Under the pieces are notes generated by a model, which was given only the letters and a program-made list of their open reading frames with translations, was not told where the DNA came from and searched no databases. A stretch of DNA of 64,000 bases from Prorocentrum cordatum (taxonomy: Eukaryota > Sar > Dinophyceae > Prorocentrales > Prorocentraceae), in the NCBI GenBank assembly GCA_963575745.1, contig CAUYUJ010015834.1:20001-84000 (forward strand), written 5' to 3'. A program made the position numbers and the translations under genes. Below are positions 2,263 to 38,930 of this stretch, piece after piece; position 1 is the first letter of the stretch; each line of letters starts with the position of its first letter.

Positions 2263-2263
2263 T

Positions 2264-13349: not shown

Positions 13350-13422
13350 GGGGCACGAAGCGAATGCGGGTTGTGCCGAACGGTCTGGGTGCCATGCAAC
13401 CTCCCACTGGGCCTTCGGTGGA
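13350..13422 (+). repeat. Uninterrupted unit of the ~90-bp family
   Basis: GCACGAAGCGAATGCGGG through CACTGGGCCTTCGGTGGA continues directly into GCTCCCTATCGGGCCACG. It serves as the reference for the insertion at 12,270-12,571. Confidence 0.75.
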
Positions 13423-14170: not shown

Positions 14171-14340
14171 CATGTTGGCCTTCTGAGGGGGCAAAGATGG
14201 CCCCAAGAAGCGCCCAGGAGGCCCCCAAAGGCCCCAAGATGGCCCCAAGAGGCCCCAAGAGGCCCCCAGGAGGCCCCAAAGAAGATCCCGAACGGCCCAC
14301 AGAGGCCCCCCCGAGGCACCCAAGACGCCGAAAAGCCCCT
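14171..14340. repeat. AAGAGGCCCC/AAGATGGCCCC word array
   Basis: Continuation of the word array that ends the duplicated unit; same family as 8600-8825. Confidence 0.8.
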
Positions 14341-20234: not shown

Positions 20235-20804
20235 GTTCTCGCAGTCGCAGTCGCATTCGCGATGACAGTCGCGGTGGCAACGGCAGTCACAGTCACAGCC
20301 TCAGCCTCAGCCTGCCTCAGTATCAGCCTGCCTCAGCCTCAGCCTCAGCCTGCCTCAGCCTCAGCCTCAGCCTGCTTCAGCCTCAGCCTCAGCCTCAGTC
20401 TGCCTTCAGCCTCGGCCTCAGCCTCAGGCTGCCTCAGCCTCAGGCTGCATCAGCCTCAGCCTCAGCCTCAGCCTGCCTCAGCATCAGCCTGCCTCAGCCT
20501 CAGCCTCAGCCTGCCTCAGCCTCAGCCTCAGCCTGCTTCAGCTTCAGCCTCAACCTTAGCCTCAGCCTCAACCTTTTCCTCAGCCTCAGCCTCAGCCTGC
20601 ATCAGCCTCAGCCTCAGCCTCAGCCTGCCTCAGCATCAGCCTGCCTCAGCCTCAGCCTCAGCCTGCCTCAGCCTCAGCCTCAGCCTCAGCCACAGCCTGC
20701 TTCAGCCAAAGCCTCAGTCTGCCTTCAGCCTTGGCCTCAGCCTCAGCCTGCCTCAGCCTCAGCCTGCTTCAGCCTCAGCCTCAGCCTCGGCCCGCCTCAG
20801 CATC
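20235..20804. repeat. CAGCCT/CAGCCTG hexamer-type array, left of the copia element
   Basis: (GCAGTC)-like repeats at 20,235-20,300 pass into CAGCCTCAGCCTGCCT words to 20,804. A ~100-bp stretch containing CTTCAGCTTCAGCCTCAACC and CTCAACCTTTTCCTCAGCC (about 20,520-20,600) recurs almost identically at about 39,320-39,410, on the other side of the copia element. Ser/Ala/Leu/Pro/Gln ORFs are repeat translation. Confidence 0.95.
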
Positions 20805-20985
20805 TGTGTATGGGGTTGAAGTACAAGTGTACAGAACCCCTGGTCCGTTGGTAGAGAGATGGAGGGATAGATGGATATCTTTCCCTCCCACGCGGCCAAG
20901 GTACGATCGCTCCAATTCAGTACCTGAGCCCAAACGGCCAGGTGCGGGAGAGGTAAGGATAAGGAGTATATATGAGGGTATTACA
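20805..20985 (-). repeat. 3' LTR
   Basis: Starts TGTGTATGGGG and ends TATTACA on the + strand, giving short inverted termini (TGT/ACA). It is followed inward, after 4 bp, by the polypurine tract. The outer neighbour is AGCATC (20,799-20,804) at the end of the CAGCCT array. Confidence 0.9.
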
Positions 20986-21754
20986 CGGGTTCCTTCCACA
21001 CCCCCCGTCCCGAATCCCGCCCGTGAAGGCAGGACTCGGGAACAGAGGATAGGAATCCGTAACCTCTGAACTCCTTTAGTCCTTAAGTCAGAAAGGCAGC
21101 TGAGGCGTAGAAAACAGCGAAGCCACAGCTGCAAAGTGAGGTAAAAAGAGATACCCTAAGTCCCCCTTTCATCCCCGGGCGCACTTTGGCGCCCCCTCGG
21201 TGCGCCCCCCAAAACGCTTCGGCACTCGAGGGAGGGGAAGAATGAGACAAGGGTAGGCGGAGAAAGTAGATCTGAGCATTAAGGCAACATGCAATCTGCC
21301 TCGCAAGATTTGCGAGGCAGGTGTTGCCACCAGCAAGCAGATTATTCTCGACGCAATATTGTTCAAATTGGTAAAATATGCATGCGAAGATCGCGTTGGC
21401 GAACACAATCTTGAAATGAAACACAGGTCTGCCTAAAAAATCAATGTATACTAAGATCGCGCTGACGAACACGATTCTGAAAAGAAACGCAAATCTGTGT
21501 AAAGCAAGTGTCTGGCCAGACAAAATGTCGTGTTGATGAACACGAAAAGAGATGTATAAAAATCTGTTTGGCGACTCCCGTTGGCGTTGCTCCTTAGGAG
21601 GCTGCCTCGGTGATCGCAAAAGATATCTATATGTGTGTATGGCCACTTGTGTGAATGATTGAAGTGGCCTAAAAGAATGTATTAGCCACCGCTCAAGGCG
21701 AACTTTGATGAAAGGAAGTTCTGCTCTTGAGCAGTGGGCCTTGCGGCCGACTCA
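20986..21754 (-). other. 3' non-coding region of the copia element
   Basis: Lies between the stop of the 1,437-aa ORF and the 3' LTR. A 187-codon minus ORF (21,646-21,083) is Cys/Phe/Leu-rich without a recognised motif. It contains a degenerate duplication around GTGTTCG.CA.CGCGATCTT (about 21,395 and 21,465). Probably untranslated. Confidence 0.5.
20990..21011 (-). promoter_or_regulatory. Candidate polypurine tract
   Basis: On the minus strand, a 22-nt G/A-rich stretch (GGGACGGGGGG then GTGGAAGGAA, one or two T) ends 4 nt before the 3' LTR. This is the position of the plus-strand primer site in LTR retrotransposons. Confidence 0.6.
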
Positions 21755-24700
21755 CTACGCGTCGCCGTCCTTGTAGAACCTGCGGTCCCACACCCTCTGG
21801 CCGTTGTGCGTCACGTAGCTTGTCGTAAACGTTTCCCAAGTTGTCCTCGGGATCCAGTTGCGGAACCAATCGTTGTACGTGATATCCTGGATGTACACAT
21901 ACTCGTCGTTGTTGATCGCAATGTAGATCCAACATTTGATGTAGTAACTCCAGTATCGAAGACCCCAGTAGCTGTCCTCGAGGTCGTGGCGCCAGTAAGC
22001 AGCGTAATCAGATGTACGTGCTCTCTTGGCGCGCGGCATCGCGGGCGCGTAGTCCTCCGCGCCTGAGGCGCGGGACGCAGCAGCGTCGCCAGGAGCAGGG
22101 CGCGGCGGCGGGCGCGGCGGCGGCCGCGACACCATGGCGTCATCGGACTGTTGGGATTGTGTATCGGGATCGGCTCTCTTCCCTGTACTAACCCCCCTCT
22201 GGTCGGTGTGTGACGGATCGAGGGAGCCTATCAGTTCGTTGGCAATCGCGGCAAGCTTACGCTGGGTGAACTGTTCACGGGTTCCGTCCCTTCGAGGGAG
22301 AGAAACCGTAACCTGTCCGCGCGCCTGCCGCGTCTGCCTGTCAATGCGTCCCTCGTTCAGCCACCACTTTCTCCGACCAGCCTGTCCTGTCCTAATGCTG
22401 ACGTCAAGGATGTCCCACGCGTCGCGCATGTCCTCGACGGTCCAGGGCTTCTTGCCGACATTCACGCGGGCACCTGTCATCTGATGATGGAACTTGAGGT
22501 CGTTGAGAAAGCGTTGTATGAGATTGACGAATGGGTAGTACAGAGGTCGGTCGTCCTCGGATTCGCCCATTAATCTGCACTCGTGTGCAGGCGGGCTACC
22601 GGCTTCGACCCACTTCTGATACCTCTTTTTGGACGCATTGGCCAATCTCCGCAACTGATCTTTCTCTGTGCCTATGTGGGATCGCGCACCCGTCATAATG
22701 ACGTGCGCGCCATCCTTCATGTATCTCGCGATCTGGCCCTCAGACAACGTCGTCTTGATCCAGTTCGTCAACTTCTGCAGGTACGCGAGATCGCTCTGTG
22801 TGGCGGTGCTCTTACCTGTGGCGCCTACGGCCACAGTGTATTGCCAACAGATATCACAAAGTGTGCCGTCACCTGGGACAATCCCGAGGGACAGATCTCG
22901 ACCGCAATCTTGACAGAGCGGTATGGGATGCAAGATCGTCTCGGGGGCCCCTGCCGAAGTCAGGTGATCGCGGGATCCCCAGCGGGTGTCCTGACCGCGA
23001 GCGAGGCTCTGACCGATCTGATTGATCGCCTCACGATTGATCTCGGTGTTCGGTCTGGAAGCGATCGATCTGCTTAAACCCTCGATCTCGATCCGAGACA
23101 ACCTTTCCCCTGGCAGTCCTTGATACTCTATCTTGATGTTGTCGGTATCCTCAGTACCGCCATGGCAAACGTTCTCCTCACGAAGACGGCGAGCCTGCTC
23201 CTGCAAGGTAGCCTCGTTGTCGCCCTCCTCGCGCTTGAGTCCCGTCTGCTCGGCTATGATACGTACCATAGTTTCCTGATCGGGAGCTGCAGACGCAACA
23301 CTGCCTGGGTCCTGGGGAATATCCTGCTCAGCGCCTTGCTCTCGAGGCGCAGCAGGTGTTTCCACCAGCTCTTCCCATACAGGAAAATCTGGATTACCGT
23401 ATGTCACAGTACAATTTTTGAATAGGTCACGCAATGCCTGAAGTGCAGGATGGTTCTCATGGATGGCCTCTTTGGCGAAATCTGGAAGCTCCGCAATACT
23501 ATCTTTCAAAATGTTCTGGTATACTTTGGAAATCCATTGAAAGATGCCTGTGGTCGACTCCTCGATAGTCTCTGGGTCGAGGTAGTGCACCAACTTTTTG
23601 AAGAAATGATCTGCACCACAATTAGGTAAGTCACGTGCCCACTTGTAGGTATGATTGTAGTTCAATTGGTATGACTCCGCATTCCATGCTTTCGATCCAA
23701 ATCGAATTTCAAATTGTAAATGTGACTGAATTTTGTCCATTACGATTCTGTCTGCGCCACTGTGTAGCTCGATGATCTGCTTCATCTTGATCATAGGCGA
23801 ACCCACCAATAACGCCGATGTCCAACAATACACGCGGCAATCATCAGACTGTTTAATCCATCTTGAATCCTCGTCGGGGTCGCAATCTGGATGGTCAAGG
23901 AAATTCGATGGCGGATCAATGATGTGGTCGAGGATGCTTGCCTCAATCTGCTCTTCTGCTTGGATGTCTGCCGAGAGGTCTGCTCTCATGTTGTCGTTCG
24001 CAGCTTTCTCATCGGCAGTAAGAGCGATATTTGATATGTCCACGATCACGGCGATCAGTGGATCATGCGATGATGCTGCACCCTGTCGAGGAATTTCGCC
24101 CGCACGAGCGTTGTCCTCGGCAGGTGTGGACACCAGCTCGTCTGGATCGGGTGTCCGAGGAGCGGGCCTTCTTGGCGGTGTACGCGGAATACGTGGTCTA
24201 TGGAAGCTAGGCATTCCAAGGTATGGTAAGCTGCCGCTAACCTTGTGCTGTAGTATCTCCTCGCTGCATGATGTCGGCCCTTTCAGGACAGTCTCCATCC
24301 ATGTTGGATCGATGGCGTGTTCTTCGATACGAATCGGTAATGCAAATACGACGCCCTTGAGGGGCATGCTTTTGTCATTATACCAGATATTTACCCATCG
24401 TAAACCGTAGTTGAGAATAGGTACTTGTACCGCAAAGAACTTGTCGAAGATGCTGAAATGGATGATTGGACCATATATGTGTCCCTTGGACAAAGTAATC
24501 TTGGTATTGTGATTGCCTTTGGGCCAGTGGTTGTCGTAGTGAAAGCATTTGGTAGAACCCCAATTCTTAATGACAATGAAGTCGCCCATTCGAACATCGT
24601 TAAATGCAGGACGACGATCCCAATCTTTTTGCATGATCTTTGATGTGATTGGTCGAAGAGCTTCGCGACAATGTGACAATGCAATTAACCATTCGTTATC

Positions 24701-26068
24701 ATCTGCTTTGTGGTTGGTCTCCTGAATCATAGCGCGTACTATTTGCTCATCCAAGGCGTCCTCTGCGGATGTACGGCCAGCAGGGGTTTCCCCCGGCCTG
24801 GCCGAGGGTGCTGATGCTGGCGTCGTCCTTGGAGGCTCCATGTTGTGGTCGGGGTCGATAGGTGCCAATCCAGGAGGGTCGTCGGTGAGTTCTCCAGGAA
24901 GGCAGGCGCAAATCTCGTACTTGCTCAATGGCTCTCTTGCTGCCAATGGCGGGTAGTCCCATGGGTCGCCGTCTGGCCACAACTGCTGGCCATGCATGTG
25001 GTGTGGTTTGAGGCGGCGAATTGCAATAATTGCCGCAGCGGGTACCACGTCCTCTGTCATGATAGCGCCCTGAGCACCCAACCAAAATCTGCAACCTGCT
25101 TTTGTGGCGATTTCCATGTTAATCACCAGCTCGACCTCGCTCTTGTAGTTGTTGAACTTGTACGATTCCACTGAAGTGTGTGGGTTCTTTTGAACATTGT
25201 TCAAACATGTGCTGGAACTAAAGAATGCCTCAGATCGCTGCGATGGTTTATAATTTCTGTCTCTCTGAGAATGTGGTTCAACATGTCCAGGAATGATCCC
25301 TGTCTTCAATATGTTATTCCAGGCACGGGATGCTGCTCCATGATGGAGATACTTGACGTCTGTCCACTGTAGACTTTCCCATCCCATATTCCATGGCTTG
25401 GAAGATGGGTTGACACAACTGTGACCACCAACGCACCGAATAGCAATGACGCTGTTCCAGTCAAAAGCGCCGGGGTCACCTCCTTCAGGGATCGGCTTGG
25501 CATATATCTCGATTCTGTTTTTCTGCGGGTCAATATGCTTCTGGAACGCACGAATAATGAATATCGGATAGTAGTCGTTCCAATCGGTGTATCCTTCATT
25601 TTCACCGTCTTTCTTGAAATGTGCCACTGCCGCTTCCATGGATGGTCCATTGTGTCTGTCTTTGCGATCTCGGAATTTCCATTCGACCATTTCTTTAAAT
25701 GATTTCCAATTGCTTGGAATATTCCAATCATTCTTTGTTGTTTTCTCCCAGGTATTAATACGTCTGTCATGAAATTGGTTGATCCAAAACTTTTTGTAGT
25801 GAATCTCGTGGCGTAACATGGTAGTGATGTCTTTGCTCATGTATTTGTTTGTTCCCAGCCATTCTTCATCAATTAGCTGAGGACCATAACGTACATCGTC
25901 GTAATGTGGTAATGGTATCCATTTCCACTCTGGGAAACAAGCAGATTGTGCAATGTCAGGCGCATGAGCAATCACACTATCATCATGCAGTAGCTGCTCG
26001 TACCACTCCTGGTCTCCCATGCAGGCAAATCCATTGGTCGCACGCGTGCCCCGCAACATTGGGCACAT
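21755..26068 (-). CDS. Tpt1/KptA RNA 2'-phosphotransferase-like multidomain protein (1,437 aa)
   Basis: A long uninterrupted ORF with an ATG start, ending TAG-TGA. Residues about 78-355 match Tpt1/KptA in order: SKDITTMLRH (R86-H87, the Arg-His of the N-terminal lobe); IAIRCVGGHSCV (R211, GHS); LHHGAASRAWNNILKTGIIP (H243, the 'HGT....I...G' block); QRSEAFFSSS (R278, the 'R.HVHLS' position); then ELVINMEIATKAGCRFWLG and AQGAIMTEDVVP, the 'vvL.id....G..F....NGV.LT..VP' block. Tpt1 transfers a 2'-phosphate from RNA to NAD+. Residues 410-440 are a Pro-rich linker; 480-590 are an unknown beta-rich, Trp/Phe-rich domain; C1052-X2-C-X15-C-X2-C1074 is a zinc ribbon; 1330-1365 are Pro/Arg-rich; the C-terminus is Tyr/Trp-rich. 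The Tpt1 domain is clear by motif; the activity is inferred. Confidence 0.8.
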   Translation of the reverse strand: MCPMLRGTRATNGFACMGDQEWYEQLLHDDSVIAHAPDIAQSACFPEWKWIPLPHYDDVRYGPQLIDEEWLGTNKYMSKDITTMLRHEIHYKKFWINQFHDRRINTWEKTTKNDWNIPSNWKSFKEMVEWKFRDRKDRHNGPSMEAAVAHFKKDGENEGYTDWNDYYPIFIIRAFQKHIDPQKNRIEIYAKPIPEGGDPGAFDWNSVIAIRCVGGHSCVNPSSKPWNMGWESLQWTDVKYLHHGAASRAWNNILKTGIIPGHVEPHSQRDRNYKPSQRSEAFFSSSTCLNNVQKNPHTSVESYKFNNYKSEVELVINMEIATKAGCRFWLGAQGAIMTEDVVPAAAIIAIRRLKPHHMHGQQLWPDGDPWDYPPLAAREPLSKYEICACLPGELTDDPPGLAPIDPDHNMEPPRTTPASAPSARPGETPAGRTSAEDALDEQIVRAMIQETNHKADDNEWLIALSHCREALRPITSKIMQKDWDRRPAFNDVRMGDFIVIKNWGSTKCFHYDNHWPKGNHNTKITLSKGHIYGPIIHFSIFDKFFAVQVPILNYGLRWVNIWYNDKSMPLKGVVFALPIRIEEHAIDPTWMETVLKGPTSCSEEILQHKVSGSLPYLGMPSFHRPRIPRTPPRRPAPRTPDPDELVSTPAEDNARAGEIPRQGAASSHDPLIAVIVDISNIALTADEKAANDNMRADLSADIQAEEQIEASILDHIIDPPSNFLDHPDCDPDEDSRWIKQSDDCRVYCWTSALLVGSPMIKMKQIIELHSGADRIVMDKIQSHLQFEIRFGSKAWNAESYQLNYNHTYKWARDLPNCGADHFFKKLVHYLDPETIEESTTGIFQWISKVYQNILKDSIAELPDFAKEAIHENHPALQALRDLFKNCTVTYGNPDFPVWEELVETPAAPREQGAEQDIPQDPGSVASAAPDQETMVRIIAEQTGLKREEGDNEATLQEQARRLREENVCHGGTEDTDNIKIEYQGLPGERLSRIEIEGLSRSIASRPNTEINREAINQIGQSLARGQDTRWGSRDHLTSAGAPETILHPIPLCQDCGRDLSLGIVPGDGTLCDICWQYTVAVGATGKSTATQSDLAYLQKLTNWIKTTLSEGQIARYMKDGAHVIMTGARSHIGTEKDQLRRLANASKKRYQKWVEAGSPPAHECRLMGESEDDRPLYYPFVNLIQRFLNDLKFHHQMTGARVNVGKKPWTVEDMRDAWDILDVSIRTGQAGRRKWWLNEGRIDRQTRQARGQVTVSLPRRDGTREQFTQRKLAAIANELIGSLDPSHTDQRGVSTGKRADPDTQSQQSDDAMVSRPPPRPPPRPAPGDAAASRASGAEDYAPAMPRAKRARTSDYAAYWRHDLEDSYWGLRYWSYYIKCWIYIAINNDEYVYIQDITYNDWFRNWIPRTTWETFTTSYVTHNGQRVWDRRFYKDGDA

Positions 26069-26095
26069 GTATGGATGGTCATCTTTGACGCCTGC

Positions 26096-26398
26096 TTATA
26101 GCTTCCATTCGCGAATAGTGCACGAGTTGTCGAAGATCCCGATCTTGCTGGTATCCTCGTGCATGGAACGCTCACAGCTGTCCTGCCATGACAATATATT
26201 CATCTCATGTGGAGAAGGCTCCTCCTCGGCAGGAGTTGCCTCCAGCTCCATTGCCTCAAGGTCGGTGCCGTCATCAGGGATCGGTACCGCCTCAGCTTTT
26301 GGGAGCTGATCTGCTGATTGTTGTTCTGCTTTAGGCTCTGGAGTCGATGGTTGCGACGCTTTGATCGATTGCGGTCCAGGTTGCAGTGGATCAGGCAA
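26096..26398 (-). CDS. Acidic linker segment upstream of the Tpt1-like ORF
   Basis: A 100-codon frame in the same phase as the following 1,437-aa ORF, from which it is separated by TAA 26,096-26,098. Pro/Gln/Glu-rich (PKAEAVPIPDDGTDLEAMEL, EEEPSPHEMN), then NILSWQDSCERSMHEDTSK. It probably forms the flexible N-terminal extension of the Tpt1-like protein, or the C-terminus of the preceding one. Confidence 0.45.
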   Translation of the reverse strand: MPDPLQPGPQSIKASQPSTPEPKAEQQSADQLPKAEAVPIPDDGTDLEAMELEATPAEEEPSPHEMNILSWQDSCERSMHEDTSKIGIFDNSCTIREWKL

Positions 26399-27608
26399 TG
26401 GGCCTGGTGGGCTGGCTGTGCTGTGTCATCAGCTGCCCTCCATACGGCTGTAGGGACATTAGGGTCATGACCCAAAGCAACTCGATCCAGTGCATTCTGT
26501 TTGAAGAATGTTTTGCATGCCTCGATGTTCTTCTCGTTCTCGGCAGCTGGGCCGATGCGGTGAGAAGACAATCTGTTTTCTTCTGCAATGATTCTTGATT
26601 TGGTCGCATTATCATCTCCATCCAAATCTTTGATCTGATGTAAAAATTGCTCGAATACAACCCAAGTAACTGCATGTGCATCTTCAACAGTTTTGACGAT
26701 CTTGGGATGTAGGAGTTCATCTTTCTCAAGAGAATGCCAAGATGCCCAAGCCCCAGGGTATTCTTTGATCAACAGCATAAGGTACTGGAATAAGTCGTTG
26801 TATGCAATAACCCATGGATCGTTATCAGGAAGGGTTTGGTCAGGATCGCCAGGGTCAGGTGCTGGCGTACGTGTCGACATTCCAGGAGTCGGCTCAGTGG
26901 TGTCGCCCGTCTCGGCAGGCAGTGATGCCGGCAATGTGCCCTCGGCACATGACGCCATCCACGCACAATGAGCCATCTCGTTTGCCGTCTGTGTCATCCA
27001 CGTTGTGAGGCTGAGGTCTCTTTTCCATTCGTTTGTCAACTTTTCTCTGAAGTCGAGGGCTGCCATGATTTCTTTGGCCTGCGTGTAGGCCTGGTTGTCC
27101 GTGACAGCAGTCAGCAATGGCGGCCTGAATGGATATGGCTGAGAAGGAAGAGACTGTATCAAGGCGCAAAAATTGCGATAGCATACTGCGTCGCAGAATT
27201 GCGTTGTAAACATTGCCATATTATGGTTATTCTGTTTGGCGTGCCAAGCCTGCGGGGTGACCCTGTCGTACGTATCCACCCAATGGTCGGATGGAAGAAC
27301 AGTGATACCACGGTTCTGCATGATAGTGATCAAGTCGCTCGTGTGGTGATCAAAGTTCGGGTGTGCGCCCATTGCGCTGCTTTTCCAGGTCCCATGACAG
27401 TGGGGCAGCGGAAATACTGCATCACGTCGACAAAACGTGATACGTCCACGAGCACGTGTACGGGCATGAGCGTCGGGACGCCGCCCTCACATTCCATCTT
27501 TTGGAGCTCGTATACGTTGGTAGGAGCACGACTGTGATGTCGGCGCATGTCGATGGCGTTCTGTCCAGGATTGGCGCATGCGATGTCGTTCGCGCTCCAA
27601 ACTACCAT
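26200..27608 (-). pseudogene. SGNH-hydrolase-like accessory ORF with frameshift
   Basis: Two overlapping frames. The first (27,608-27,330) starts with an ATG, MVVWSANDIACANPG, where W-S-A-N-D resembles block III (GxND) of SGNH/GDSL esterases, then VPTLMPVHVLVDVSRF. A shift near 27,370 leads to the second frame (27,372-26,200): HPNFDHHTSDLITIMQNRGI, then LPSDHWVDTYDRVTPQAWHA, where D..D..WH fits the block V Asp/His region, and a helical tail. Residues 150-190 are a Pro/Thr-rich linker. The block I GDSL Ser is not evident, so catalysis is unproven; an RNA- or protein-deacylating or purely structural role are alternatives. After about 26,400 the plausible frame moves to that of the next entry. 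Confidence 0.4.
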
Positions 27609-27626
27609 GGCATTGAGTCCCCTGTG

Positions 27627-28385
27627 CTAGTGTCTTTGTTTTATGGATGATGGGAAATCATTGGCCCAATATTCCCAGATGGTCTCGTTCAACTCGCGCC
27701 ACTTCTTGATGGAGGCGTTGTCGCTTTGGAACATGAGGCCTCTGGCTTCGCGGATCTTCCTGATCAGGTTGCGCTGCTCGAGAGTGTTCTCAAACTGATT
27801 GTTGAGAAGAGCGTTGATACGGCTTTCTTATTTCTCGAAACGTTGCTTGCGTAGTTCCTCCATTCCGTATCGTACGCCTTCATAACCAGCTTCAGGCAAG
27901 AGAACGCAATCTTGACCAATCGGCGTGTCATTCTGTCTGAACCATTCCCTGTAATTGCCAAAGGAGAATGCCCACATCATGATGTCGTCGCGGATCATGG
28001 TCGACAGGTGCTCAAGAGTAGCGCCGCCCATGTATTCCGCGCGGTTGAGGCACGGCATGAATAGCGGTACAAGAGCAGTATTTGATGCACTAGCGAGGTC
28101 AATTCTCTTCTGGGCAGCGTTGAGCTCGTCGATGCCGAAAGTGGGGTACTTCTTGTGTTTTGCACCCTTAGTCCCTTTCTTGGGATGCATGATCCATGTT
28201 GAGTCAGTGTATAAGTTGGTCCATTTGTACGCGTGACCCGATGGCCCAAACGCATGATGTAATAGTAGTCCCAAGTCCTCTTGTATGAGGGAGCGCCACC
28301 CATTGTCTGATAAGTGTAGAAACCAAGCGACCACCACAGAAAGCACTGTATTTTGCGTGGTCCAGCTCAAATGGGTCAACAGCAT
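27627..28385 (-). pseudogene. Accessory ORF after RNase H, part 2 (unknown function, interrupted)
   Basis: Continuation of the previous protein after a frameshift near 28,320. Readable sequence: GWRSLIQEDLGLLLHHAFGP, WTNLYTDSTWIMHPKKGTKG, NRAEYMGGATLEHLSTMIRD, MMWAFSFGNYREWF, ending RKQRFEK at TAA 27,828-27,830. The same frame stays coding-like for another 66 codons (SRINALLNNQFENTLEQRN, LNETIWEYWANDFPSS) to TAG 27,627-27,629, after which the SGNH-like segment begins in the same frame. No family is recognised; helical, Trp/Tyr-rich. Joined with part 1 it would be a ~650-residue protein. Confidence 0.55.
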
Positions 28386-29421
28386 TGCCAGGAGTCAGGC
28401 CAGGGTCATTCGAACCGATCTGGTCAGCAGCTTCGCCAAAGAAGTCGTCGCCCTCGTTGTATGGTGTCCAACGATGAGTACGCTCTGTATCTAGTGGATC
28501 ATCCAATATCGCCACCCAACCATTCGGATGGTCGGATGGTGTTGCCACCGTCTTGGAGTTTGATCCGATACTTCCAAAGCCTCCGCGCGCAGTCAACCAT
28601 GTAGTAAGCTTGCGACGGAACTTCTCTGTTTGGGTAAGGTCGGAAAATGCTCTCGTGCTGGTGACCAAGTTATCTTCGACGATGTGACCGATGTGTCCAG
28701 ATGTATCCGATGTCCTGGCGATGCCAGGTGGACGAGTAGGTAGCTTGGCCATTGCGCGATCAATTTTAGGAGCATAGCATGGCGTTACCAACCCATTCTG
28801 GTATACATCGGATGGTGCACTCAGACCATTGTTGTAATATCTTTGCGTATCCGTAACGCTGTCCTCGGTGTATTGTCCCAGAACTGCACTGCCAATTTTG
28901 GACCAATCGTTGCGAATCATCATCCACTCCGTCTTCAGTATCATTGTAGTAAAGTTCGATGGTGGACATTTGCGGTCTGATCCTGGGATCGTCGCATTCA
29001 AATGATCATGTAGTCCACGAACACTGTCTTGTACTGAAGGATTACGATTGAAAAGGCTGGAAATCATACACATAGCACGCATGAATGATAGCCACGGCGT
29101 AGCTGTGAACGTGTTGTACTCGTAGTTGGCGTTGCCGCCAACGGATCCACTCTCGGTGTTGGCCCATTTCTTAGCCTCGACGGACGCGAAGCGGGCAAGT
29201 TCACGAATAGAAGATTCGTCGGGTACGCGAAGATCAAATTCTCCGCTCCGATCGGCACGCCGTTGATGTATGTATATGTAACCATCTTCGGGATCACGAG
29301 GACGACCAGTTTGAGCGTGGTACGCAAAGCCCACGCGGCCATCGTCCCTGGCGTTCGGGTCGTACTCCTTGTCGTAGCCGATGGGCCAGCCGACGAGGTT
29401 GAGCGGCTGTGCCTGATCCAT
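28204..29421 (-). CDS. Accessory ORF after RNase H, part 1 (unknown function)
   Basis: An open frame with an ATG at 29,421. It begins MDQAQPLNLVGWPIGYDKEY; about 405 codons. The composition is that of a normal globular protein (W, Y, F and charged residues well mixed), unlike the repeat ORFs, but no domain is recognised. Landmarks: DDGRVGFAYHAQTG, GYIYIHQRRADRSGEFDLRV, NDWSKIGSAVLGQY, FELDHAKYSAFCGGRLVST. After about 28,320 the credible sequence continues in the frame of the next entry, so an indel separates the two. It lies between RNase H and the SGNH-like ORF on the same strand and is probably part of the element's extra polyprotein. Confidence 0.6.
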   Translation of the reverse strand: MDQAQPLNLVGWPIGYDKEYDPNARDDGRVGFAYHAQTGRPRDPEDGYIYIHQRRADRSGEFDLRVPDESSIRELARFASVEAKKWANTESGSVGGNANYEYNTFTATPWLSFMRAMCMISSLFNRNPSVQDSVRGLHDHLNATIPGSDRKCPPSNFTTMILKTEWMMIRNDWSKIGSAVLGQYTEDSVTDTQRYYNNGLSAPSDVYQNGLVTPCYAPKIDRAMAKLPTRPPGIARTSDTSGHIGHIVEDNLVTSTRAFSDLTQTEKFRRKLTTWLTARGGFGSIGSNSKTVATPSDHPNGWVAILDDPLDTERTHRWTPYNEGDDFFGEAADQIGSNDPGLTPGNAVDPFELDHAKYSAFCGGRLVSTLIRQWVALPHTRGLGTTITSCVWAIGSRVQMDQLIH

Positions 29422-29684
29422 CTCGTGGATGGATGGGGTCGGGATTAGAACCGATCTCACTTATGTGAGCGAGCAACGACATATGTACATGTACGCCCTC
29501 CGCGATCTTGAATGCACGAACGTCCTCGTTCAAACGCCCTCCAGGGGATGCTAACCGCGTACGTGTACATATGTTGCTGGCCTTTGATTATGTTCGCCTC
29601 GCAAGCGGCAAACAGGATGCTTGTAAGCTTTGTAGCTCGAGTCGTAAAATTGCTGCGGTGTGAACGAATAATCAATGTCCTAAC

Positions 29685-32147
29685 TCACTCTGCATCTCGT
29701 TGAGGTGAGGGAGGATGGCGAGGATGTCTACCGTGCGGTGAACGTGCGCGTGAACGAGGTGTGCGCGACGCAATATCTGCGGCTGGTACGCCAATGTGGT
29801 ACATGCATGCACATAGTCCCTCGTGACTAGCTTGCCCAACACACTGAAATCCGCATTCTGATCCTACATCGCCCCATCTTTCTTCTTCCGTCAGCAATAT
29901 CTTGCATATTTCTGGGCATCCATTCAATTTAGGAGGTTCCGCTTCATGAGGTAAACCGTCGGGCCTCCGAGGCCCTCGTATCGGCGGACATTGTATCGGA
30001 GCAACAGGAAAAATAAGCGAGTGTTCCAAGAGGTCCTTCCAAAGGTCTGCTTTCTTGGTCTCGAAATATTTGGTCATCATATCTGCGATCTGCTCTTTTG
30101 TTCCTACATATTTAAGCTCGATGTGTTCAATTTGACATGTTTCGCATATCCAATCCAGATTGATACGATGAGTACGATGAAGATGACGAAGTGCTGGTGT
30201 ACGTCCCTTTTGGACAATTTTGATAACGGCCTGGTTATCCTCCAGGACGATGAGTCGTACTTTCGGTGCACTGATCTCTGGAGCTGGCTCTGGATCCACG
30301 TGTAGTACGGTACCTTCATGGGATATTGTACGTCTCTTTGGAGTCGTAGGTAAATCCGTATTTAGCGGTAGTTGCCTACGGCTAGGAGAAGATCCCCGAG
30401 TAGGGGGTGCCTTGCGAGGCGATGGTTTACGCTTCTTTTTGGCTGCCAATGTAGGACACATCGCCGGGTCAACGTGTCGATGGCAGCTCAGGCATGTATT
30501 CTTCTCTTTGCATGTTTTGGCAACTCCCACCACGGCTTCCCAGAATGATAGTAGTGGTAACCCTTCCAGTCGTAGTGCGGAATCGAGAGCAACGATCTCA
30601 GATTCAGTAGATGAATGTGAAACAACCGTTTGTTTTGAAGGTGAAACAACCGTTTGTTTCTTACATACAGCGTTGACTGGAAAGAACGTATTGGGTCCAA
30701 CAAGCGCAGCAAAAACACCGGTAGTGGATTTGGATGATGTAATGCAATCAGCGAACGAGGCGTCAGTAAAGAGCATGATGGATATCTTGTCTGACGAATC
30801 GCCTATCCATCCGTGTAAGCAATGTGTACGCGTCGTTTTGATGTAGCATATCAACCGATGTAGACGTTTGTCACATGTAGTATTCCATTCGGTAATTTCT
30901 CTGGCCAACATACATACCGGATGTAGAAGATCGAAACGACAGCAACGTGCCAAGTACAGGATCTTCATTAGTACACTTGCCGCGTCCTGGCCGAGAACGC
31001 CCTCGTCTGAATAGTCGGACTCAGTGAAGGAGGTGTCCTCGATGCCAGGGGTCTCTGCGTCGGGTAGGTCATGGTATGTGACGGGTATGGTATTGGTAGA
31101 TGTCGTGTCGACCGATTTTGCTGGGCTGGATGATCGTGGCCGCGCGTTGAGCACACTGGTAGGTCTGGCGACCGACCCGCAGGAGGATGGCGATTTGGAT
31201 CGCGAAGCCCTCGGCGAGTCGGATCGTTTCCGACGTGACCCTGTTCCCTGGGCGCGCTTGGAAGCGCATTCCAGGTACCGCTCAATGCACTGATCTGTAA
31301 AACCAAGCATGTCATGTCGAATGCCACGAACGTGTTTGGCCGTATTGTAATATTTCTCATTGCGTGCAGGTAGCATGGGGCGTATTGTGGACATTCTTTT
31401 GTCGAAGATGCTCTGCGGTACATCATATGCTTGTTGTCCACAACCCAAATATTGTGAGTATGGAGTAGGTGGATCCAAATCGACACCGCTTTTGCGAATA
31501 TAATCCCAGCCAGTCTGTAGATTATGAGCTGGGCCGGCCAATTTAAAATCGTCCACATATACTGAAAGTATCAGTCCCAGTTTGTTGTGTCTCCATACGC
31601 ATTCCCATCCTGAAATAGGCTCGAAACCGACGCTTTCCAAGCACGTACGGCATTTTCGTCCCCAAAAGACACCTGCGAGGGGGTGTCCGTATAGTGCCAG
31701 TCGCAATCGGCACACTGGGTTCTTGTATTTTGACCATGATGTCGGTTGTCGCCATTTAGGTATAGTAATCCAGGTATCAACTGGATCAATTCGTCCGTCG
31801 CCGTATAATAATGCCTGCGTGTAAGCTCCAGGTGCGTCACTTTGCTCCCCTGCATATTGCGGTAATAACGCAGTAGCATCGCAAAGTTTGGAAGCCTCTA
31901 TATGCGAAGCACTGGAAGCGGCGTCGGCGAATATGGCGGCCAAACCAGTTTCGTCTTTGCCTGTATTGCCCTGAACCACCACTCTGCCCTTGAATTTACG
32001 TAGATCAGGAGGAAGTTCCTCATGTTTGACTGAAGATAACTCCAAGATATTGAAGAAATGCACCTTTGTTCCATTGCGGATAGCTTGTGACTCAATATCA
32101 GCTTTTTCTGCAACAGTCTCCAATATCCACGTTTGTTTCTTTTCCAA
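29685..32147 (-). CDS. Copia reverse transcriptase and RNase H (820 aa)
   Basis: The ORF has no ATG at its open end (first listed codon TTG) and is in frame with the preceding ORF across TAA 32,187. RT: RVVVQGNTGK near residue 55, motif A QSDAPGAYTQ with D104, motif B-like ALYGHPLAGVFW (151-162), motif C SVYVDDFKLAG with D199/D200. A Ser/Arg-rich insert (about 295-345) precedes RNase H. RNase H: FTDASFAD (D462), SSTESE (E517), LEDNQAV (D637), KYVGTKEQIADMMTK (D689). Odd features: an 8-residue tandem duplication (KQTVVSPS/KQTVVSHS, 497-512), and a ~75-residue Cys/Lys-rich insertion between E517 and D637 with CLSCHRH. The C-terminus has a Cys-rich tail (GCPEIC, ECGFQC, CAC) and ends at TGA. All RT and RNase H catalytic acids are present. 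Confidence 0.92.
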   Translation of the reverse strand: MEKKQTWILETVAEKADIESQAIRNGTKVHFFNILELSSVKHEELPPDLRKFKGRVVVQGNTGKDETGLAAIFADAASSASHIEASKLCDATALLPQYAGEQSDAPGAYTQALLYGDGRIDPVDTWITIPKWRQPTSWSKYKNPVCRLRLALYGHPLAGVFWGRKCRTCLESVGFEPISGWECVWRHNKLGLILSVYVDDFKLAGPAHNLQTGWDYIRKSGVDLDPPTPYSQYLGCGQQAYDVPQSIFDKRMSTIRPMLPARNEKYYNTAKHVRGIRHDMLGFTDQCIERYLECASKRAQGTGSRRKRSDSPRASRSKSPSSCGSVARPTSVLNARPRSSSPAKSVDTTSTNTIPVTYHDLPDAETPGIEDTSFTESDYSDEGVLGQDAASVLMKILYLARCCRFDLLHPVCMLAREITEWNTTCDKRLHRLICYIKTTRTHCLHGWIGDSSDKISIMLFTDASFADCITSSKSTTGVFAALVGPNTFFPVNAVCKKQTVVSPSKQTVVSHSSTESEIVALDSALRLEGLPLLSFWEAVVGVAKTCKEKNTCLSCHRHVDPAMCPTLAAKKKRKPSPRKAPPTRGSSPSRRQLPLNTDLPTTPKRRTISHEGTVLHVDPEPAPEISAPKVRLIVLEDNQAVIKIVQKGRTPALRHLHRTHRINLDWICETCQIEHIELKYVGTKEQIADMMTKYFETKKADLWKDLLEHSLIFPVAPIQCPPIRGPRRPDGLPHEAEPPKLNGCPEICKILLTEEERWGDVGSECGFQCVGQASHEGLCACMYHIGVPAADIASRTPRSRARSPHGRHPRHPPSPQRDAE

Positions 32148-32186
32148 TCTCTCGTATTCTTTTCGAAGGGCTTCTTGTGCACGTGG

Positions 32187-33437
32187 TTATGCGGTAACTT
32201 CTTTCTTACTCAGGTTTCTGGTAACTAATGCTGGGCGTGACCATGTCGAATCTGGTATTTTATCTCTGTGTGCCGGCGTGTAGTTGGTCTCACGTGGCAT
32301 GGTTGGTATTACTACCGACTGGGTGAACTTGCGTATAAGCGGGTTCAAAGTCCCAAAGTCGGTTCCCTCATTATCCACAAAGACCAAAGCACGTTCTTCT
32401 CCATCGTGCTGTTGTGGTAGTTGACGGTAGTATAGTACCGTGGTAATGTCACGTGGCCCACCAGGTAATTTGGCATACAGTATTTCTTTGTTTGTCACGC
32501 CTTTGACGTTCTCGTCGCGGATGACGTCGCCATTGTCAGTGTCGTATGTAATCCGTCGTTCCACAGTATTCCAGGTTGGTCCGCCTGATGTAGTAGTACG
32601 GAAATTGTTGACCTGTTTATCCTGTCTTGTCCACACTTTTAGTGCGGCGCGATCACGAATTTCTCGAGCTCGTTTTACGTCGTTGGCGTAATCGATCTCT
32701 TTCTTTTGCTGTCCACGAGAAAGTGTTTTCCAATGCTCGGGAAGAACATGATCAGGACGTGTAGTAGTCTGCACACGTGTCTCGCGTCCACGAACCACCA
32801 TTTTGCCGTCTGGCGTTATTTTTGGAAGCTCATAGAACTGAATCGTGCCTGTCCATGGCTCGCTTAACTCCCTGTGGTCGTTGGCGCTAACACCATCCCA
32901 AACATCTCGGAAATTACTTTCGCCCTCGAAAGTAGAAGTCGTTTTGAAATCTCGTGTCACGTCGAGTTGGTCAACAGGTACAGGTATGTTCATGACGTCG
33001 TCCGTCGGGATGAACAGTTTCTTTCTTGGAGTACGAATGTGTCTGATGACGCAATATCCACGCTGTTCCCAGTAGTCTGGCTCCGGCGCTGGCGCAGCAA
33101 CTTCAGAGGCCGATGTCTGGATATCAACAGCGTTATCTTCCGTTGTCATCATAGATGGATCATCCCATTCTTTAGGGTAGGAAAGTGGAGGATCAGGCAT
33201 TGGCTTGTCACCCAAGGGGCGAGAAGTAGAGGCCTTCACCTCGTCGTGTGCCTCCGGGTTGTGATGTCGTAGGGTACCATCTTTCACGGGGTAGGTGAAC
33301 TTGCCATCAGGGCTGATGATGTCTTTAACTCTGTGTACATGACACAGTTCACCATCAGGGTTCCTGGCGTATGTAGCCGTGTCCAAGACAAGGTAGTCAC
33401 CTGACCATCGTCCACCAGAGTGTAAGTGGTATCCCAT
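32187..33437 (-). CDS. Copia integrase C-terminal region and linker to RT (416 aa)
   Basis: Reached from the integrase frame by a -1 (or +2) shift near 33,430; no canonical slippery heptamer is visible there, so an indel is more likely than programmed shifting. It opens with GGRWSGDYLVLDTATYARNP and a GELCHVHRVKDI segment, typical of the beta-rich integrase C-terminus. The middle is acidic and variable. PEHWKTLSRGQQKKEIDYA resembles the helix found before RT in copia polyproteins. It ends at TAA (32,187-32,189), after which the same frame continues (PRAQEALRKEYERLEKKQTW), the usual N-terminal motif of copia RT. Function is mainly structural or targeting; assignment rests on position. Confidence 0.7.
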   Translation of the reverse strand: MGYHLHSGGRWSGDYLVLDTATYARNPDGELCHVHRVKDIISPDGKFTYPVKDGTLRHHNPEAHDEVKASTSRPLGDKPMPDPPLSYPKEWDDPSMMTTEDNAVDIQTSASEVAAPAPEPDYWEQRGYCVIRHIRTPRKKLFIPTDDVMNIPVPVDQLDVTRDFKTTSTFEGESNFRDVWDGVSANDHRELSEPWTGTIQFYELPKITPDGKMVVRGRETRVQTTTRPDHVLPEHWKTLSRGQQKKEIDYANDVKRAREIRDRAALKVWTRQDKQVNNFRTTTSGGPTWNTVERRITYDTDNGDVIRDENVKGVTNKEILYAKLPGGPRDITTVLYYRQLPQQHDGEERALVFVDNEGTDFGTLNPLIRKFTQSVVIPTMPRETNYTPAHRDKIPDSTWSRPALVTRNLSKKEVTA

Positions 33438-36400
33438 GAATAACCCTCCTCGAGTATTTTCTTTAAACTTTGCAGTCTCGTTGTTAATCTCGGGGTTGAG
33501 GCATTTCCGAATGGTATGCAGTGCCCAGGAAAGCTTTCGCCAAATCTTATTTCATGAGCTGTCTTTTCTGCATGCTCCTCGTTGAGGGCAGCGACGCCCG
33601 TGGATGTATGCACAAAGTTGTGTCCACAGCAAAAGGCTTGCATGGCCTCTTTCCGCCATTCGTGTCCCAGACCAGTCATATGTAACACAGCTCTGGTACC
33701 GAGAATGACTATTTTGACAACGCGCTCAATCAATCCATTTGTCTGTGGACGATGTGGCGTACTCGTGTCGCGTCTCCATCCCAGTTGGCGGCAAGCTTTC
33801 TGAAGCTCTCCAGAGTTGTCTGTGTAGATATGCTTCACCTCATCGTTCGCGGCGATGAACTGTTGAAAGGATGCCTTTGTAGTAGCTGCGTCTTTGTGTA
33901 GCGCTGGGTAGGCCATGAAGATGCCAGTATATCTGTCAAGGACAACAAGTGCATATGTGTCGCCATGTTTGTCCGCGGCATCGTCTTTGGCCAGTGCGAT
34001 ATGGTCGGCAGTTAGAGCTTCACCGAACTTCTTCGGGACAAAAGCCTCGTAGGCGTTATCCTCTTCGGTGGGGTCTGCCGGTGGATGTGGTTTGTGCTGT
34101 CGTCTACACGGGGCATTCTGTGCCATCGTACGAGAACAGATCTCACAGTCAGGATGTTTTGGGCTGTGAGTCATGTAATGCATCGGGTCGATCGGTTTCT
34201 TTTGTCTGTTGGGTAGAACTCGATCGTTGTCTGGATGCGTTCGCGTGGGTGTCTCTGTCGGTATGTCGTTGTCTGCTTGAGCTATATCTAGCCCCCCGCA
34301 TTGTGGAGGAGAGCACTGCGTCAGAGACATAGGCGAGTCGGTGGTTGTGTCCACGTTGGGCTCGTCTGTGCGTGTGTCGGGAGGTTGTTCGACCGTGATG
34401 GTCCGTGCTCCTCCTCCCTCTCCGACATGTGGTCTCTTGGGGCAGGTCCCTATGTGGGGCCGTAGCTCGTCTGCAGTGGTTGGTTGCTCTGTAGTTTTGC
34501 AGCACCAACAAGTGTCGTTACAGCGGGCGGATGAACGCTTTCGCTGACGACGGCGGGGTGCTGACGAAATGCATAAACGTGGTGGTGGTATCCGTGTTAA
34601 GTCGTCGAGTCGTAACTCTGGCACTCGATTGTTGACTGGAATCTTATACCATTGGCCCCCCGGATCCTGAAGCATGTAGCCTAGCTCAGGATCCCAAAGC
34701 TGTCGAAAGCCATCAACCTCAATCAATTTTCCAACTGATAGTAATGATGGGCAGTCTGGTAAAGCAAGGGCTGAACTATGCAGTCCAACTTCGGGTAGCC
34801 GTATGTCGTAGTGCTCGTTGACGGTACGATCACCATTTGCAGTTTCCAGAATAAGCTCTTCGCGAATAGATATGCGATCCGACTCGGTCTGCGTAAGTTC
34901 ATGTTTTCCCTGAATATGATGAGCAGAACCACTGTCGAGAACCCAAGACCTTGTCAATGCTGCAGTCGAACGTGGAGGGTCGACTTGCTTTGTCGTTGTT
35001 GTCGTCTGGTCAGTCTTTGATGACTGCTTGACAGTGTCGTCATGCTTTCGGATCGCAGTTGGTGTGGCCACCGACTCTTTGTTGTGTCGGTAGTCATATA
35101 GTTCGTCATACCAGAAAGGTGCCTCTTTTTGACATTCTCGTAAGGCCTCTGCACTATCATCCCACCATTTTTGTTGTAATGGATCTGGTACTTTGACGAT
35201 GTCACCCTCATTCGGCAGCTCTTTCCATCTGTCCAGTCTGGCTCTGCCAGATATGGTATGGAAGTAGTAGTCCACGTTGCGTACGTCGAAGCGTATCCGA
35301 CGACGTGTCTTGGTAGATGTCGCTGTGGCCTTGGTGTTGGCCATGAGGGTCTTGTCACGGATGACGCAACTGCGGTCTGAACGGCGTGAACGTCTAAAGT
35401 TGGCAGGAGAACGTGCTCTAGTGTTGGGAGAACCACGGGGCGATCCGCGGCTCGGATACCGCTTGCCACGTCCTTTGTCACTACCATATGATCTATCACG
35501 GCCGCGTGGACTGCCGCGTCCGCCGCCACGATTGTCTCGTCCTCGGGAGGTAGATCTCGAAGATCTGTCGTAACGATTTCTCGATTGGCTGCGAGAGTCG
35601 TGGGACCTCCTGGATGTCGAACGGGATCGGTCGTATTGGCGTCGGTTGTCACGTCCCTGTCGTGAATCGCTTGCGCGGCGAAACCCCCCGCGTTGTGAAG
35701 ACCGTTGGCTTCCTGATCCGCGGGATGGTGATCGGCCACGGCTGTCCTGGCTGGAAGTCCGTGGTCGACTCGGGCTTCGTTCAGGAGTCTTTGCACCAGG
35801 TGCGAGATGAGCGGATTTGCATTTGTCGCCTTTTGTGCACTTGTTCTGTGCGAAATCCTTGCACTGTGCGACGTGCGGGTAGTTACACTTATCACCTCTG
35901 GTACATGTGTTGCGCTTGGCAACATCGAAGCAGAATGGCCTTGATGCTGGCTTCTTGTGGTTCGCAGGAGTGGACATACTACGGCGGGGGTTGCCACCAG
36001 CCGTTGATGTTCTGGAAGATTTGTTGTTCTTCCAATCCCTGGAATATGTATGTAAAGCCTTGCACCGTTCACCATTGCGACAATTGCCTTCCTTCCATGC
36101 AGCGCACACGTTGACCTGAGATCGTGTCTCGTGTTCGTACAGTAGCTTGTTTTGATTCTTCTCCAATTGTTTAATCTCCAGTATGTCCAGGACACGCTGT
36201 CGAAGCCAACCGTAGGTACGATTCGGGTCGCTCATCTTCATGCGCTGGTACTCGTACATGCCTTGTTTCATCCATGCATGTCTACGAATCTGTGTGCGAA
36301 ATAGCGATTCCAATATCTTTGGATCGGGTACTTCTCGGCATTCCAAGAGTAAGGCGTCCCAATCGGTAATGAAACGTTGCAAATCTTCATCTCTCATCCT

Positions 36401-36451
36401 CAGTTCTTTAAGGCGCTCGAAATCGTGCAGGTCGTCGTCGACGTCTGTCAC
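33284..36451 (-). CDS. Copia capsid C-part, CCCH zinc fingers, protease and integrase (1,055 aa)
   Basis: In frame with the upstream ORF across the TAA; its own first codon is GTG, so it is a continuation rather than an independently started gene. Residues 1-110: helical capsid segment. Residues 116-134, 174-193 and 197-215: three C-X7/8-C-X5-C-X3-H fingers. Residues 220-360: Arg/Ser/Gly-rich. Residues 503-512 (WVLDSGSAHH): aspartic protease with catalytic D506. Residues 762-772 (H..H..C..C): integrase N-terminal zinc region. Integrase core D816 (TADHI), D878 (YTDNSGE) and E909 (NGLIER). After about residue 1000 (near 33,430) the plausible frame shifts to the following ORF. The catalytic residues of protease and integrase are all present. 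Confidence 0.9.
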   Translation of the reverse strand: MTDVDDDLHDFERLKELRMRDEDLQRFITDWDALLLECREVPDPKILESLFRTQIRRHAWMKQGMYEYQRMKMSDPNRTYGWLRQRVLDILEIKQLEKNQNKLLYEHETRSQVNVCAAWKEGNCRNGERCKALHTYSRDWKNNKSSRTSTAGGNPRRSMSTPANHKKPASRPFCFDVAKRNTCTRGDKCNYPHVAQCKDFAQNKCTKGDKCKSAHLAPGAKTPERSPSRPRTSSQDSRGRSPSRGSGSQRSSQRGGFRRASDSRQGRDNRRQYDRSRSTSRRSHDSRSQSRNRYDRSSRSTSRGRDNRGGGRGSPRGRDRSYGSDKGRGKRYPSRGSPRGSPNTRARSPANFRRSRRSDRSCVIRDKTLMANTKATATSTKTRRRIRFDVRNVDYYFHTISGRARLDRWKELPNEGDIVKVPDPLQQKWWDDSAEALRECQKEAPFWYDELYDYRHNKESVATPTAIRKHDDTVKQSSKTDQTTTTTKQVDPPRSTAALTRSWVLDSGSAHHIQGKHELTQTESDRISIREELILETANGDRTVNEHYDIRLPEVGLHSSALALPDCPSLLSVGKLIEVDGFRQLWDPELGYMLQDPGGQWYKIPVNNRVPELRLDDLTRIPPPRLCISSAPRRRQRKRSSARCNDTCWCCKTTEQPTTADELRPHIGTCPKRPHVGEGGGARTITVEQPPDTRTDEPNVDTTTDSPMSLTQCSPPQCGGLDIAQADNDIPTETPTRTHPDNDRVLPNRQKKPIDPMHYMTHSPKHPDCEICSRTMAQNAPCRRQHKPHPPADPTEEDNAYEAFVPKKFGEALTADHIALAKDDAADKHGDTYALVVLDRYTGIFMAYPALHKDAATTKASFQQFIAANDEVKHIYTDNSGELQKACRQLGWRRDTSTPHRPQTNGLIERVVKIVILGTRAVLHMTGLGHEWRKEAMQAFCCGHNFVHTSTGVAALNEEHAEKTAHEIRFGESFPGHCIPFGNASTPRLTTRLQSLKKILEEGYSWDTTYTLVDDGQVTTLSWTRLHTPGTLMVNCVMYTELKTSSALMASSPTP

Positions 36452-36490
36452 TTTGTAGGACTGTAGGATATGCCAGTATATCTGGCGTCC

Positions 36491-38647: not shown

Positions 38648-38717
38648 GCGCCGAAGTGGCTACATCAGGCTCGCATGCGAGGTCACCGCGGGCGAGTCGG
38701 TGAGGGTGAGCTTTAAA

Positions 38718-38729
38718 GGGCTGATAACC
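38718..38729 (-). promoter_or_regulatory. Candidate primer-binding site
   Basis: Directly internal to the 5' LTR the minus strand reads GGTTATCAGCCC. It resembles the initiator-Met-tRNA-complementary TGGTATCAGAGC used by many copia elements, with one inserted T and changes at the end. Position is right; identity is weak. Confidence 0.35.
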
Positions 38730-38910
38730 TGTGTATGGGGTTGAAGTACAAGGGTACAGAACCCCTGATCCGTTGGTAGAGAGATGGAGGGATAGATGGA
38801 TATCTTTCCCTCCCAAGCGATCAAGGTACGATCGCTCCAACTCAGTACCTGAGCCCAAACGGCCAGGTGCGGGAGAGGTAAGGATAAGGAGTATATATGA
38901 GGGTATTAAG
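38730..38910 (-). repeat. 5' LTR
   Basis: Direct-repeat partner of 20,805-20,985, with 6 substitutions over 179 aligned bases. It begins, on the + strand, TGTGTATGGGG. The outer end reads GGGTATTAAG where the other LTR has GGGTATTACA, so the terminal CA is lost. A TATA-like TCATATATAC (minus strand) lies at 38,891-38,900. AGCATC at 38,925-38,930 matches AGCATC immediately outside the other LTR and may be a displaced target-site duplication. Confidence 0.9.
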
Positions 38911-38930
38911 GAGGAGATTCACAGAGCATC

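Follow-up and report, generated by a model that had tools for sequence, protein, structure and literature searches.

A Tpt1/KptA-like domain in Ty1/copia-type retrotransposons of the dinoflagellate Prorocentrum cordatum

Why would a retrotransposon carry an enzyme of RNA repair? The question is raised by a stretch of 64,000 nucleotides from the genome of the dinoflagellate Prorocentrum cordatum (the window; positions 20001–84000 of contig C14985, in an assembly that totals 4.13 Gb in 21,875 contigs), which contains a decayed Ty1/copia-type retrotransposon bounded by long terminal repeats (LTRs). One open reading frame (ORF) of this element includes a region resembling Tpt1/KptA, an enzyme that elsewhere takes off the phosphate left after RNA repair. 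The region is homologous to Tpt1/KptA, retains the full Arg-His-Arg-Arg tetrad, shares a frame with the reverse transcriptase (RT) of its family, called here lineage B, and is under purifying selection, and a second family of the same genome, lineage A, has a Tpt1 domain at the position of a Gag-type ORF. The domain may be a genuine RNA 2'-phosphotransferase of the Tpt1/KptA family, fixed and selected in no fewer than two Ty1/copia lineages, only distantly related to each other, of a single dinoflagellate, and would then strip 2'-phosphates for reverse transcription; we regard this proposal as evenly poised between being right and being wrong.

The Tpt1-like domain of lineage B

A first-pass annotation, made from the letters of the window, had described an uninterrupted ORF of 1,437 residues (21755–26068, minus strand) with the blocks LRH, IRCVGGHS, HHGAAS, R278, and GAIMTED in Tpt1 order. 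The frame is indeed intact, and the blocks follow each other as described. Copy counts below refer to 30 fetched copies of lineage B, the best of 108 scored matches in the genome when ranked by protein similarity.

25034..25837, minus strand: Tpt1/KptA-like domain, residues 78–345 of the 1,437-residue ORF (PF01885, our alignments A1 and A6, profile control)
25808..25816, minus strand: LRH motif with tetrad residues R86 and H87 (both in 30/30 copies)
25418..25441, minus strand: IRCVGGHS motif with tetrad residue R211 (30/30 copies)
25334..25345, minus strand: HHGA motif, equivalent to the HGT motif (HHGT in 28/30 copies)
25235..25237, minus strand: tetrad residue R278 (30/30 copies; aligned with an invariant Arg of host Tpt1s)

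The complete tetrad predicted from the window, R86/H87/R211/R278, is kept in all 30 copies and aligns with host Tpt1s and with lineage A. In CthTpt1 the tetrad consists of Arg18, His19, Arg68, and Arg121 (PMC6333775). The HHGA motif is present in the window copy as first read, but it is not typical of the family, being found in only two of the 30 copies.

Pfam family PF01885 has a curated cut-off of 26 bits. In this search, which the first-pass annotation had proposed, the window copy stays under it (residues 206–339, 21.3 bits, E = 3.2e-4), whereas the sister copies, four of which were tested across these 380 residues, all exceed it (28.2–29.8 bits, E = 7.6e-7 to 2.3e-6). One of these four, taken at 1,380 residues, scores 24.1 bits, slightly under the cut-off. 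With a Tpt1 profile (alignment A6), the window frame reaches 13.3 bits, against 2.8 bits for the runner-up among 429 frames of the window, and the domain scores 16–17 bits, against a maximum of 7.6 over 5,000 shuffles; chance similarity was rejected on this control. Direct comparison of the lineage B profile with the Tpt1 profile by hhalign gives E = 8.5e-5 at a probability of 60%. The homology to Tpt1/KptA is supported by the supra-threshold sister copies, the aligned tetrad, and the controls for chance.

Several results weigh against this assignment. NCBIfam model NF002012 reaches only E = 0.053 on the window ORF. Six other hhalign groupings give E values from 1.4e-4 to 0.11, and the weaker of them are not clearly apart from the reversed-sequence controls (0.096–0.68), because those controls reach 0.096. 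No Tpt1 was among the matches in a search of PDB sequences with lineage B, made with one protein and also with a profile. As judged from the alignments, the lineage B domain is very divergent: its identity to the aligned host Tpt1 enzymes is 19–23%, its N-terminal part is longer, and a stretch of 123 residues separates H87 from R211.

The two-lobe fold of Tpt1, a winged helix joined to an ADP-ribosyltransferase lobe, was not confirmed by AlphaFold2 models, which were of poor quality, with a predicted local distance difference score (pLDDT) of 40 for the 380-residue region, too poor for use, and of 54 for the 188-residue core, the latter with a predicted template modelling score (pTM) of 0.58. 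A protein-database search with the lineage B region found no match at E ≤ 0.001 among 1,747 length-matched candidates, and scans of IMG/VR with the Tpt1 domains of both lineages and with the lineage B RT found no relative.

Copies, selection, and structure of lineage B

Lineage B is a high-copy family of the Ty1/copia type. With the 380-residue Tpt1 region as query, 108 matches, the window included, were scored from 1,690 first-look candidates; all are 93–100% identical, and 97 are free of stops. A 284-residue RT query gave 137 scored matches from 3,569 candidates. RT and the Tpt1 domain share one open frame in 24 contigs, with start-to-start offsets of 5,784 (14 contigs) or 6,072 (10 contigs), which, allowing for strand, amount to one constant spacing. 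The shared frame is 5,671 residues long in C1598, C19770, and C13789, and 7,081 residues long in C489. Such a common frame at constant spacing indicates that the Tpt1 domain belongs to one giant polyprotein. That the whole resemblance is an artefact, be it of chance, of a chimeric assembly, or of a host gene into which the element had jumped, could be argued from the window match, which by itself lies under the Pfam cut-off; set against the identity of all 108 matches, the single RT–Tpt1 spacing in 24 contigs, and the profile and shuffle controls, this explanation is scarcely credible, and both a host gene and a chimera were rejected on the repeated RT–Tpt1 frame. One fetched copy (L024, C2509:20464–21603) matches the window copy exactly over the 1,140 nucleotides of the domain, being either a very recent copy or the same locus assembled twice.

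The intact frame had initially been taken as a hint of selection. On its own this hint is weak, because the window copy merely keeps the end of one long frame, but selection is borne out by comparison between copies. Regional ratios of nonsynonymous to synonymous substitution rates (dN/dS) were obtained for the 12 fully open copies, the other 18 of the 30 having a stop within 1,380 residues. In these 12, the pooled pairwise dN/dS is 0.062 in the Tpt1 core (confidence interval, 0.030–0.125), compared with 0.238 upstream, 0.226 in the N-terminal part, and 0.239 downstream; over all 30 copies, the values are 0.095 for the core and 0.233 for the N-terminal part. Variants in the core were counted in 29 copies, with L024 left out as identical to the window copy. 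Those shared by at least four copies comprise five nonsynonymous and 24 synonymous changes, and the singletons 27 and 21, respectively (Fisher p = 0.0008); for shared variants, the contrast between the core and the N-terminal part gives p = 0.02. These p values and the absolute ratios are merely indicative, because the sequences are related and were picked by protein similarity. Stronger evidence of selection comes from the contrast between regions within one set of copies, where no other region compared is as constrained as the Tpt1 core of lineage B.

Two points weigh on the other side. The choice of the copies as best protein matches biases dN/dS downwards overall, and the Tpt1 part of lineage A (0.222, five copies) is not specially constrained: its value is similar to those of adjacent parts, and both the RING finger (0.031) and the gag-like part (0.095) of these five copies are more constrained. 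The domain might also be a non-enzymatic module, RNA-binding or structural, that serves particle assembly, and the strong divergence of lineage B, the long H87–R211 stretch, and the weak scores would suit such a role. We consider it very improbable, as the complete tetrad, the HGT motif of 28 copies, and the constraint on the core would be unexpected for a purely structural role.

The window element itself is arranged as follows, in its own reading direction after the first line.

20805..38925, minus strand: Ty1/copia-type LTR retrotransposon of lineage B, decayed, ~18.1 kb (LTRs, target duplication, primer binding site, purine-rich tract, rve and RVT_2 matches)
38926..38930, no strand: target site duplication GCATC, plus-strand letters (sequence)
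38730..38925, minus strand: 5' LTR, 196 bp, differing from the 3' LTR in the outermost 17 bp (repeat comparison)
38718..38729, minus strand: primer binding site (PBS) GGTTATCAGCCC (11/12 nt complement of the host tRNA-iMet anticodon arm)
36491..38647, minus strand: 718-residue ORF piece in gag position (weak matches under cut-off; no gag family)
33284..36451, minus strand: 1,055-residue ORF piece with three CCCH zinc fingers (PF18345/PF00642) and an integrase core (family scan)
32187..33437, minus strand: 416-residue ORF piece immediately upstream of the RT piece (residues 266–344, 32–36% identity to lineage A pol)
29685..32147, minus strand: 820-residue ORF piece, copia-type RT (PF07727, RVT_2, E = 4.3e-6, under cut-off)
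28204..29460, minus strand: 418-residue ORF piece, first of two that separate RT from Tpt1 (without family match)
26200..27372, minus strand: 390-residue ORF piece, second of two that separate RT from Tpt1 (without family match)
21755..26068, minus strand: 1,437-residue ORF, tail of the giant polyprotein, holding the Tpt1-like domain (ORF reading, copy comparison)
21001..21012, minus strand: purine-rich tract CGGGACGGGGGG, adjoining the 3' LTR (direct sequence reading)
20805..21000, minus strand: 3' LTR, 196 bp (repeat comparison)
20800..20804, no strand: target site duplication GCATC, plus-strand letters (sequence)

The order in lineage B is a gag-position ORF, CCCH fingers, the integrase core, the 416-residue piece, RVT_2, two unmatched pieces, and the Tpt1 ORF. 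The integrase core (PF00665, rve, E = 4.5e-6) precedes the RT, as in Ty1/copia, both matches being under their curated cut-offs. The two LTRs of the window are 97% identical over 180 bp; the termini of lineage B LTRs, TGTGTATGG...CCATACACA, were read from part of another copy (L054 in C19770), in which the PBS is identical to that of the window. Upstream of the 1,437-residue ORF the window copy is frame-shifted, and since its ORF pieces occupy different frames, it is a decayed one. The first-pass placement of the domain inside a copia element is upheld by the LTR pair, the GCATC duplications, and the frame shared with RT. A minisatellite of the CAGCCT type flanks the element on both outer sides (20296–20801 and 38925–39595), and the element therefore seems to have been inserted into such an array.

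Elsewhere in the window there are a long array of tandem units of ~100 bp (44542–47720) and a direct repeat of 0.76 kb with 96% identity (12571–13327 and 13422–14177). The G+C content varies from 48 to 67% across 2-kb bins, and scans of the window with Rfam and ARAGORN gave no matches. The published P. cordatum genome comprises 4.15 Gbp in 22,724 scaffolds, with 59.7% G+C (PMC10666404). The dinoflagellate origin is supported by 14,218 exact copies of the dinoflagellate spliced leader in the assembly, against none for the reversed control.

A second lineage carrying Tpt1

A genome search with PF01885 yielded 2,877 candidates, and all 150 that were scored exceed the cut-off: six at 135–186 bits, one at 96, and 143 at 71–92. 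Lineage A was sampled from the last class at seven places, mostly picked for long frames, together with L008. All eight contain a Tpt1 domain of 291 residues that is 87–100% identical to the copy in C10025, and the motif blocks are kept in 8/8 aligned copies. The C10025 domain is full and canonical (PF01885, 86.7 bits, E = 2.5e-24), and lineage A matches PDB entry 7yw3, tRNA 2'-phosphotransferase 1, at E = 1.6e-12.

In lineage A the domain is located in a Gag-type ORF, ahead of a conserved UGA. This first ORF is 2,940 residues long in C10025 (first 2,461 scanned) and includes a CCHC knuckle (E = 1.7e-3, under cut-off), Tpt1, and a RING finger (PF17123, E = 1.4e-8), followed by a stretch that looks protease-like by eye. 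A single UGA comes after the ORF, and an open frame then leads into pol. The codons TCT-TGA-AGA, with near-identical flanks, occur in 6/6 copies examined (e.g. L010:1437–1439), and the UGA is a possible readthrough signal; in the Candida albicans element Tca2, a UGA separates gag and pol (PMC2194720). The LTRs of C10025, the one copy in which they were read, are 269 bp long, identical at 266 of 269 positions, and have CGCAT duplications on either side. RVT_2 is recognised in the pol of C1962 (E = 2.5e-8, 34.3 bits, cut-off 31.6) and weakly in C11336 (E = 0.0059); rve gave no match within the six lineage A pieces scanned.

In protein-database searches, a longer lineage A piece matched nothing among 539 candidates, and the 291-residue domain had one match among 325, a 190-residue EukProt protein labelled Pyramimonas sp. 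(P0001), which is 70% identical to it; wider spread, horizontal transfer, or contamination is possibly the cause. The six top PF01885 matches include L003, with an internal stop, as well as L005 and L006, which belong to a small repeat family. In L006, a 316-residue ORF (1432–2379, plus strand) fuses Tpt1 and a histone-hairpin-binding domain; the former scores 133 bits with PF01885, the latter 28.1 bits with PF15247 (SLBP_RNA_bind; cut-off 27). This ORF stands head to head with another that has no family match. L006, the near-identical L005, and L007 are three dispersed copies of ~93–99% identity.

The possibility that lineages A and B are unrelated elements was rejected, since the 416-residue ORF next to the window RT matches lineage A pol at 7/7 loci (32–36% over 73–91 positions, best E = 3e-9), which makes the two distantly related copia elements; BLASTP of the 820-residue RT piece against the A pol piece gives a best E of 0.58. 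In the tree, the Tpt1 of lineage A groups with the L006/L007 repeat family at an ultrafast bootstrap (UFBoot) of 100, and that of lineage B is unplaced (UFBoot 30–34) on a very long branch. The differing position of Tpt1, the PBS, and the pol sequence favour two separate captures, although a single origin of the two domains is, on these sequences, neither shown nor excluded.

Priming, possible function, and meaning

Both lineages appear to address the same host tRNA at different places. In the two copies read, the PBS of lineage B is complementary at 11/12 positions to the anticodon arm of tRNA-iMet (GGGCTCATAACC); the sole mismatch falls on the first anticodon base, and complementarity stops beyond the PBS. 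The PBS of lineage A, TGGTAGCGGAGC (C10025, one copy), is complementary at 12/12 positions to the tRNA-iMet 3' end plus CCA. Nine tRNA-iMet-like matches were found in the genome, every one on contig C19152; of these, L061 was fetched, and ARAGORN identifies it as a tRNA-Met(CAT) gene. By its PBS complementarity, lineage B may be primed in the Hemivirus manner. Elements with reported anticodon-loop priming include copia of Drosophila, Ty5, and Copia elements of fungi (PMC10886601), and a short tRNA segment as primer defines Hemivirus (PMC8515867). Drosophila copia, yeast Ty5, and Hemivirus share with lineage B a PBS for the tRNA-iMet anticodon arm; lineage B differs in its mismatched first anticodon base, and the excerpts of the two papers mention no Tpt1.

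We infer, as the most probable role, that the Tpt1 domain would use NAD+ to remove 2'-phosphates from RNAs that reverse transcription needs. One such substrate might be genomic RNA that has been cut and then re-ligated by a putative tRNA-type ligase of the host; another might be the tRNA-iMet primer or a fragment of it. The proposal follows from the expectation that a 2'-phosphate hinders RT on a template or blocks priming at a 3' end, and, originating from the polyprotein, the domain would reach the virus-like particle, the site of reverse transcription. A role on a primer fragment cannot account for both lineages, because priming in lineage A takes place at the 3' end of the tRNA. For lineage B, the element might bring its own primer-maturing enzyme: tRNA-iMet would be cut near the anticodon, which would leave its 3' end blocked by a phosphate, the Tpt1 domain would take off the 2'-phosphate, and the half-tRNA would prime at the anticodon-arm PBS, so that, with lineage A, copia elements would have twice recruited NAD+-dependent RNA repair. 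This is distinctly doubtful.

Instead of removing 2'-phosphates, the domain could cap the 5'-phosphate ends of RNA or cDNA with ADP-ribose and so shield the RNA or DNA of the element from host enzymes. RNA with a 5'-phosphate is ADP-ribosylated by human TRPT1 and by a Streptomyces KptA, and TRPT1 no longer does so when any one of its tetrad residues is lost (PMC6582358); lineage B keeps this tetrad. The reaction at 5' ends is, however, known in vitro (PMC6582358), and the same residues equally serve the 2'-phosphotransferase (PMC6333775), the present data separating neither activity from the other; we consider capping quite unlikely. Counter-defence, in which the domain would heal RNA, either tRNAs of the host or that of the element, after cleavage by a host ribonuclease in a response directed at the element, is possible though unlikely. 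KptA of phages and viruses has been read in this way (PMC9503650, section 3.7.3), and the presence of Tpt1 at different polyprotein sites of two distantly related lineages would suit a common host pressure, but no ligase, kinase, or 2H family was matched in the pieces scanned, which cover neither polyprotein wholly.

The proposed 2'-phosphotransferase has precedents of several kinds. With the Tpt1/KptA family (PF01885), the domains share the Arg-His-Arg-Arg tetrad, the GHS and HGT motifs in order, and matches above the cut-off in sister copies of lineage B and in lineage A; they differ by sitting within a retrotransposon polyprotein. A picorna-like virus and a nidovirus have KptA embedded within their polyproteins, and the enzyme also occurs in phages, sawfly nucleopolyhedrosis viruses, and Bodo saltans mimivirus (PMC9503650, section 3.7.3); none of these is a retrotransposon, and the string 'retrotranspos' is absent from the main text of that paper. 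Retrotransposons with DNA methyltransferases (DNMTs) likewise captured a nucleic-acid-modifying enzyme more than once, and one host, Symbiodinium, is a dinoflagellate too. The enzyme differs, as do the elements, which are of the LINE (long interspersed nuclear element) or DIRS type in Symbiodinium and DIRS-like with Gypsy-type domains in the charophyte K. nitens; the Copia elements of Symbiodinium are without a DNMT domain (PMC5890265). No description of Tpt1/KptA in a retrotransposon was found among the matches listed in the open-access literature, judged from titles and the starts of abstracts, with subscription papers, preprints, and Repbase outside this scope, and the main text of the P. 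cordatum genome paper (PMC10666404) contains none of 'phosphotransferase', 'LTR', or 'retrotranspos'. Enzyme capture by retrotransposons is known in kind; a Tpt1-type activity in one appears to be new.

If the proposal is true, RNA repair would join the activities captured by LTR retrotransposons, and this in two lineages, distantly related to each other, that are both abundant in one genome. The case would offer a handle on the old question of why repair enzymes of the tRNA-ligation type have been retained, and taken up by mobile elements, so widely, and on the question of whether reverse transcription is limited by RNA damage. Should the domain of lineage B mature its own primer, retrotransposition would be tied to host NAD+ and to RNA damage.

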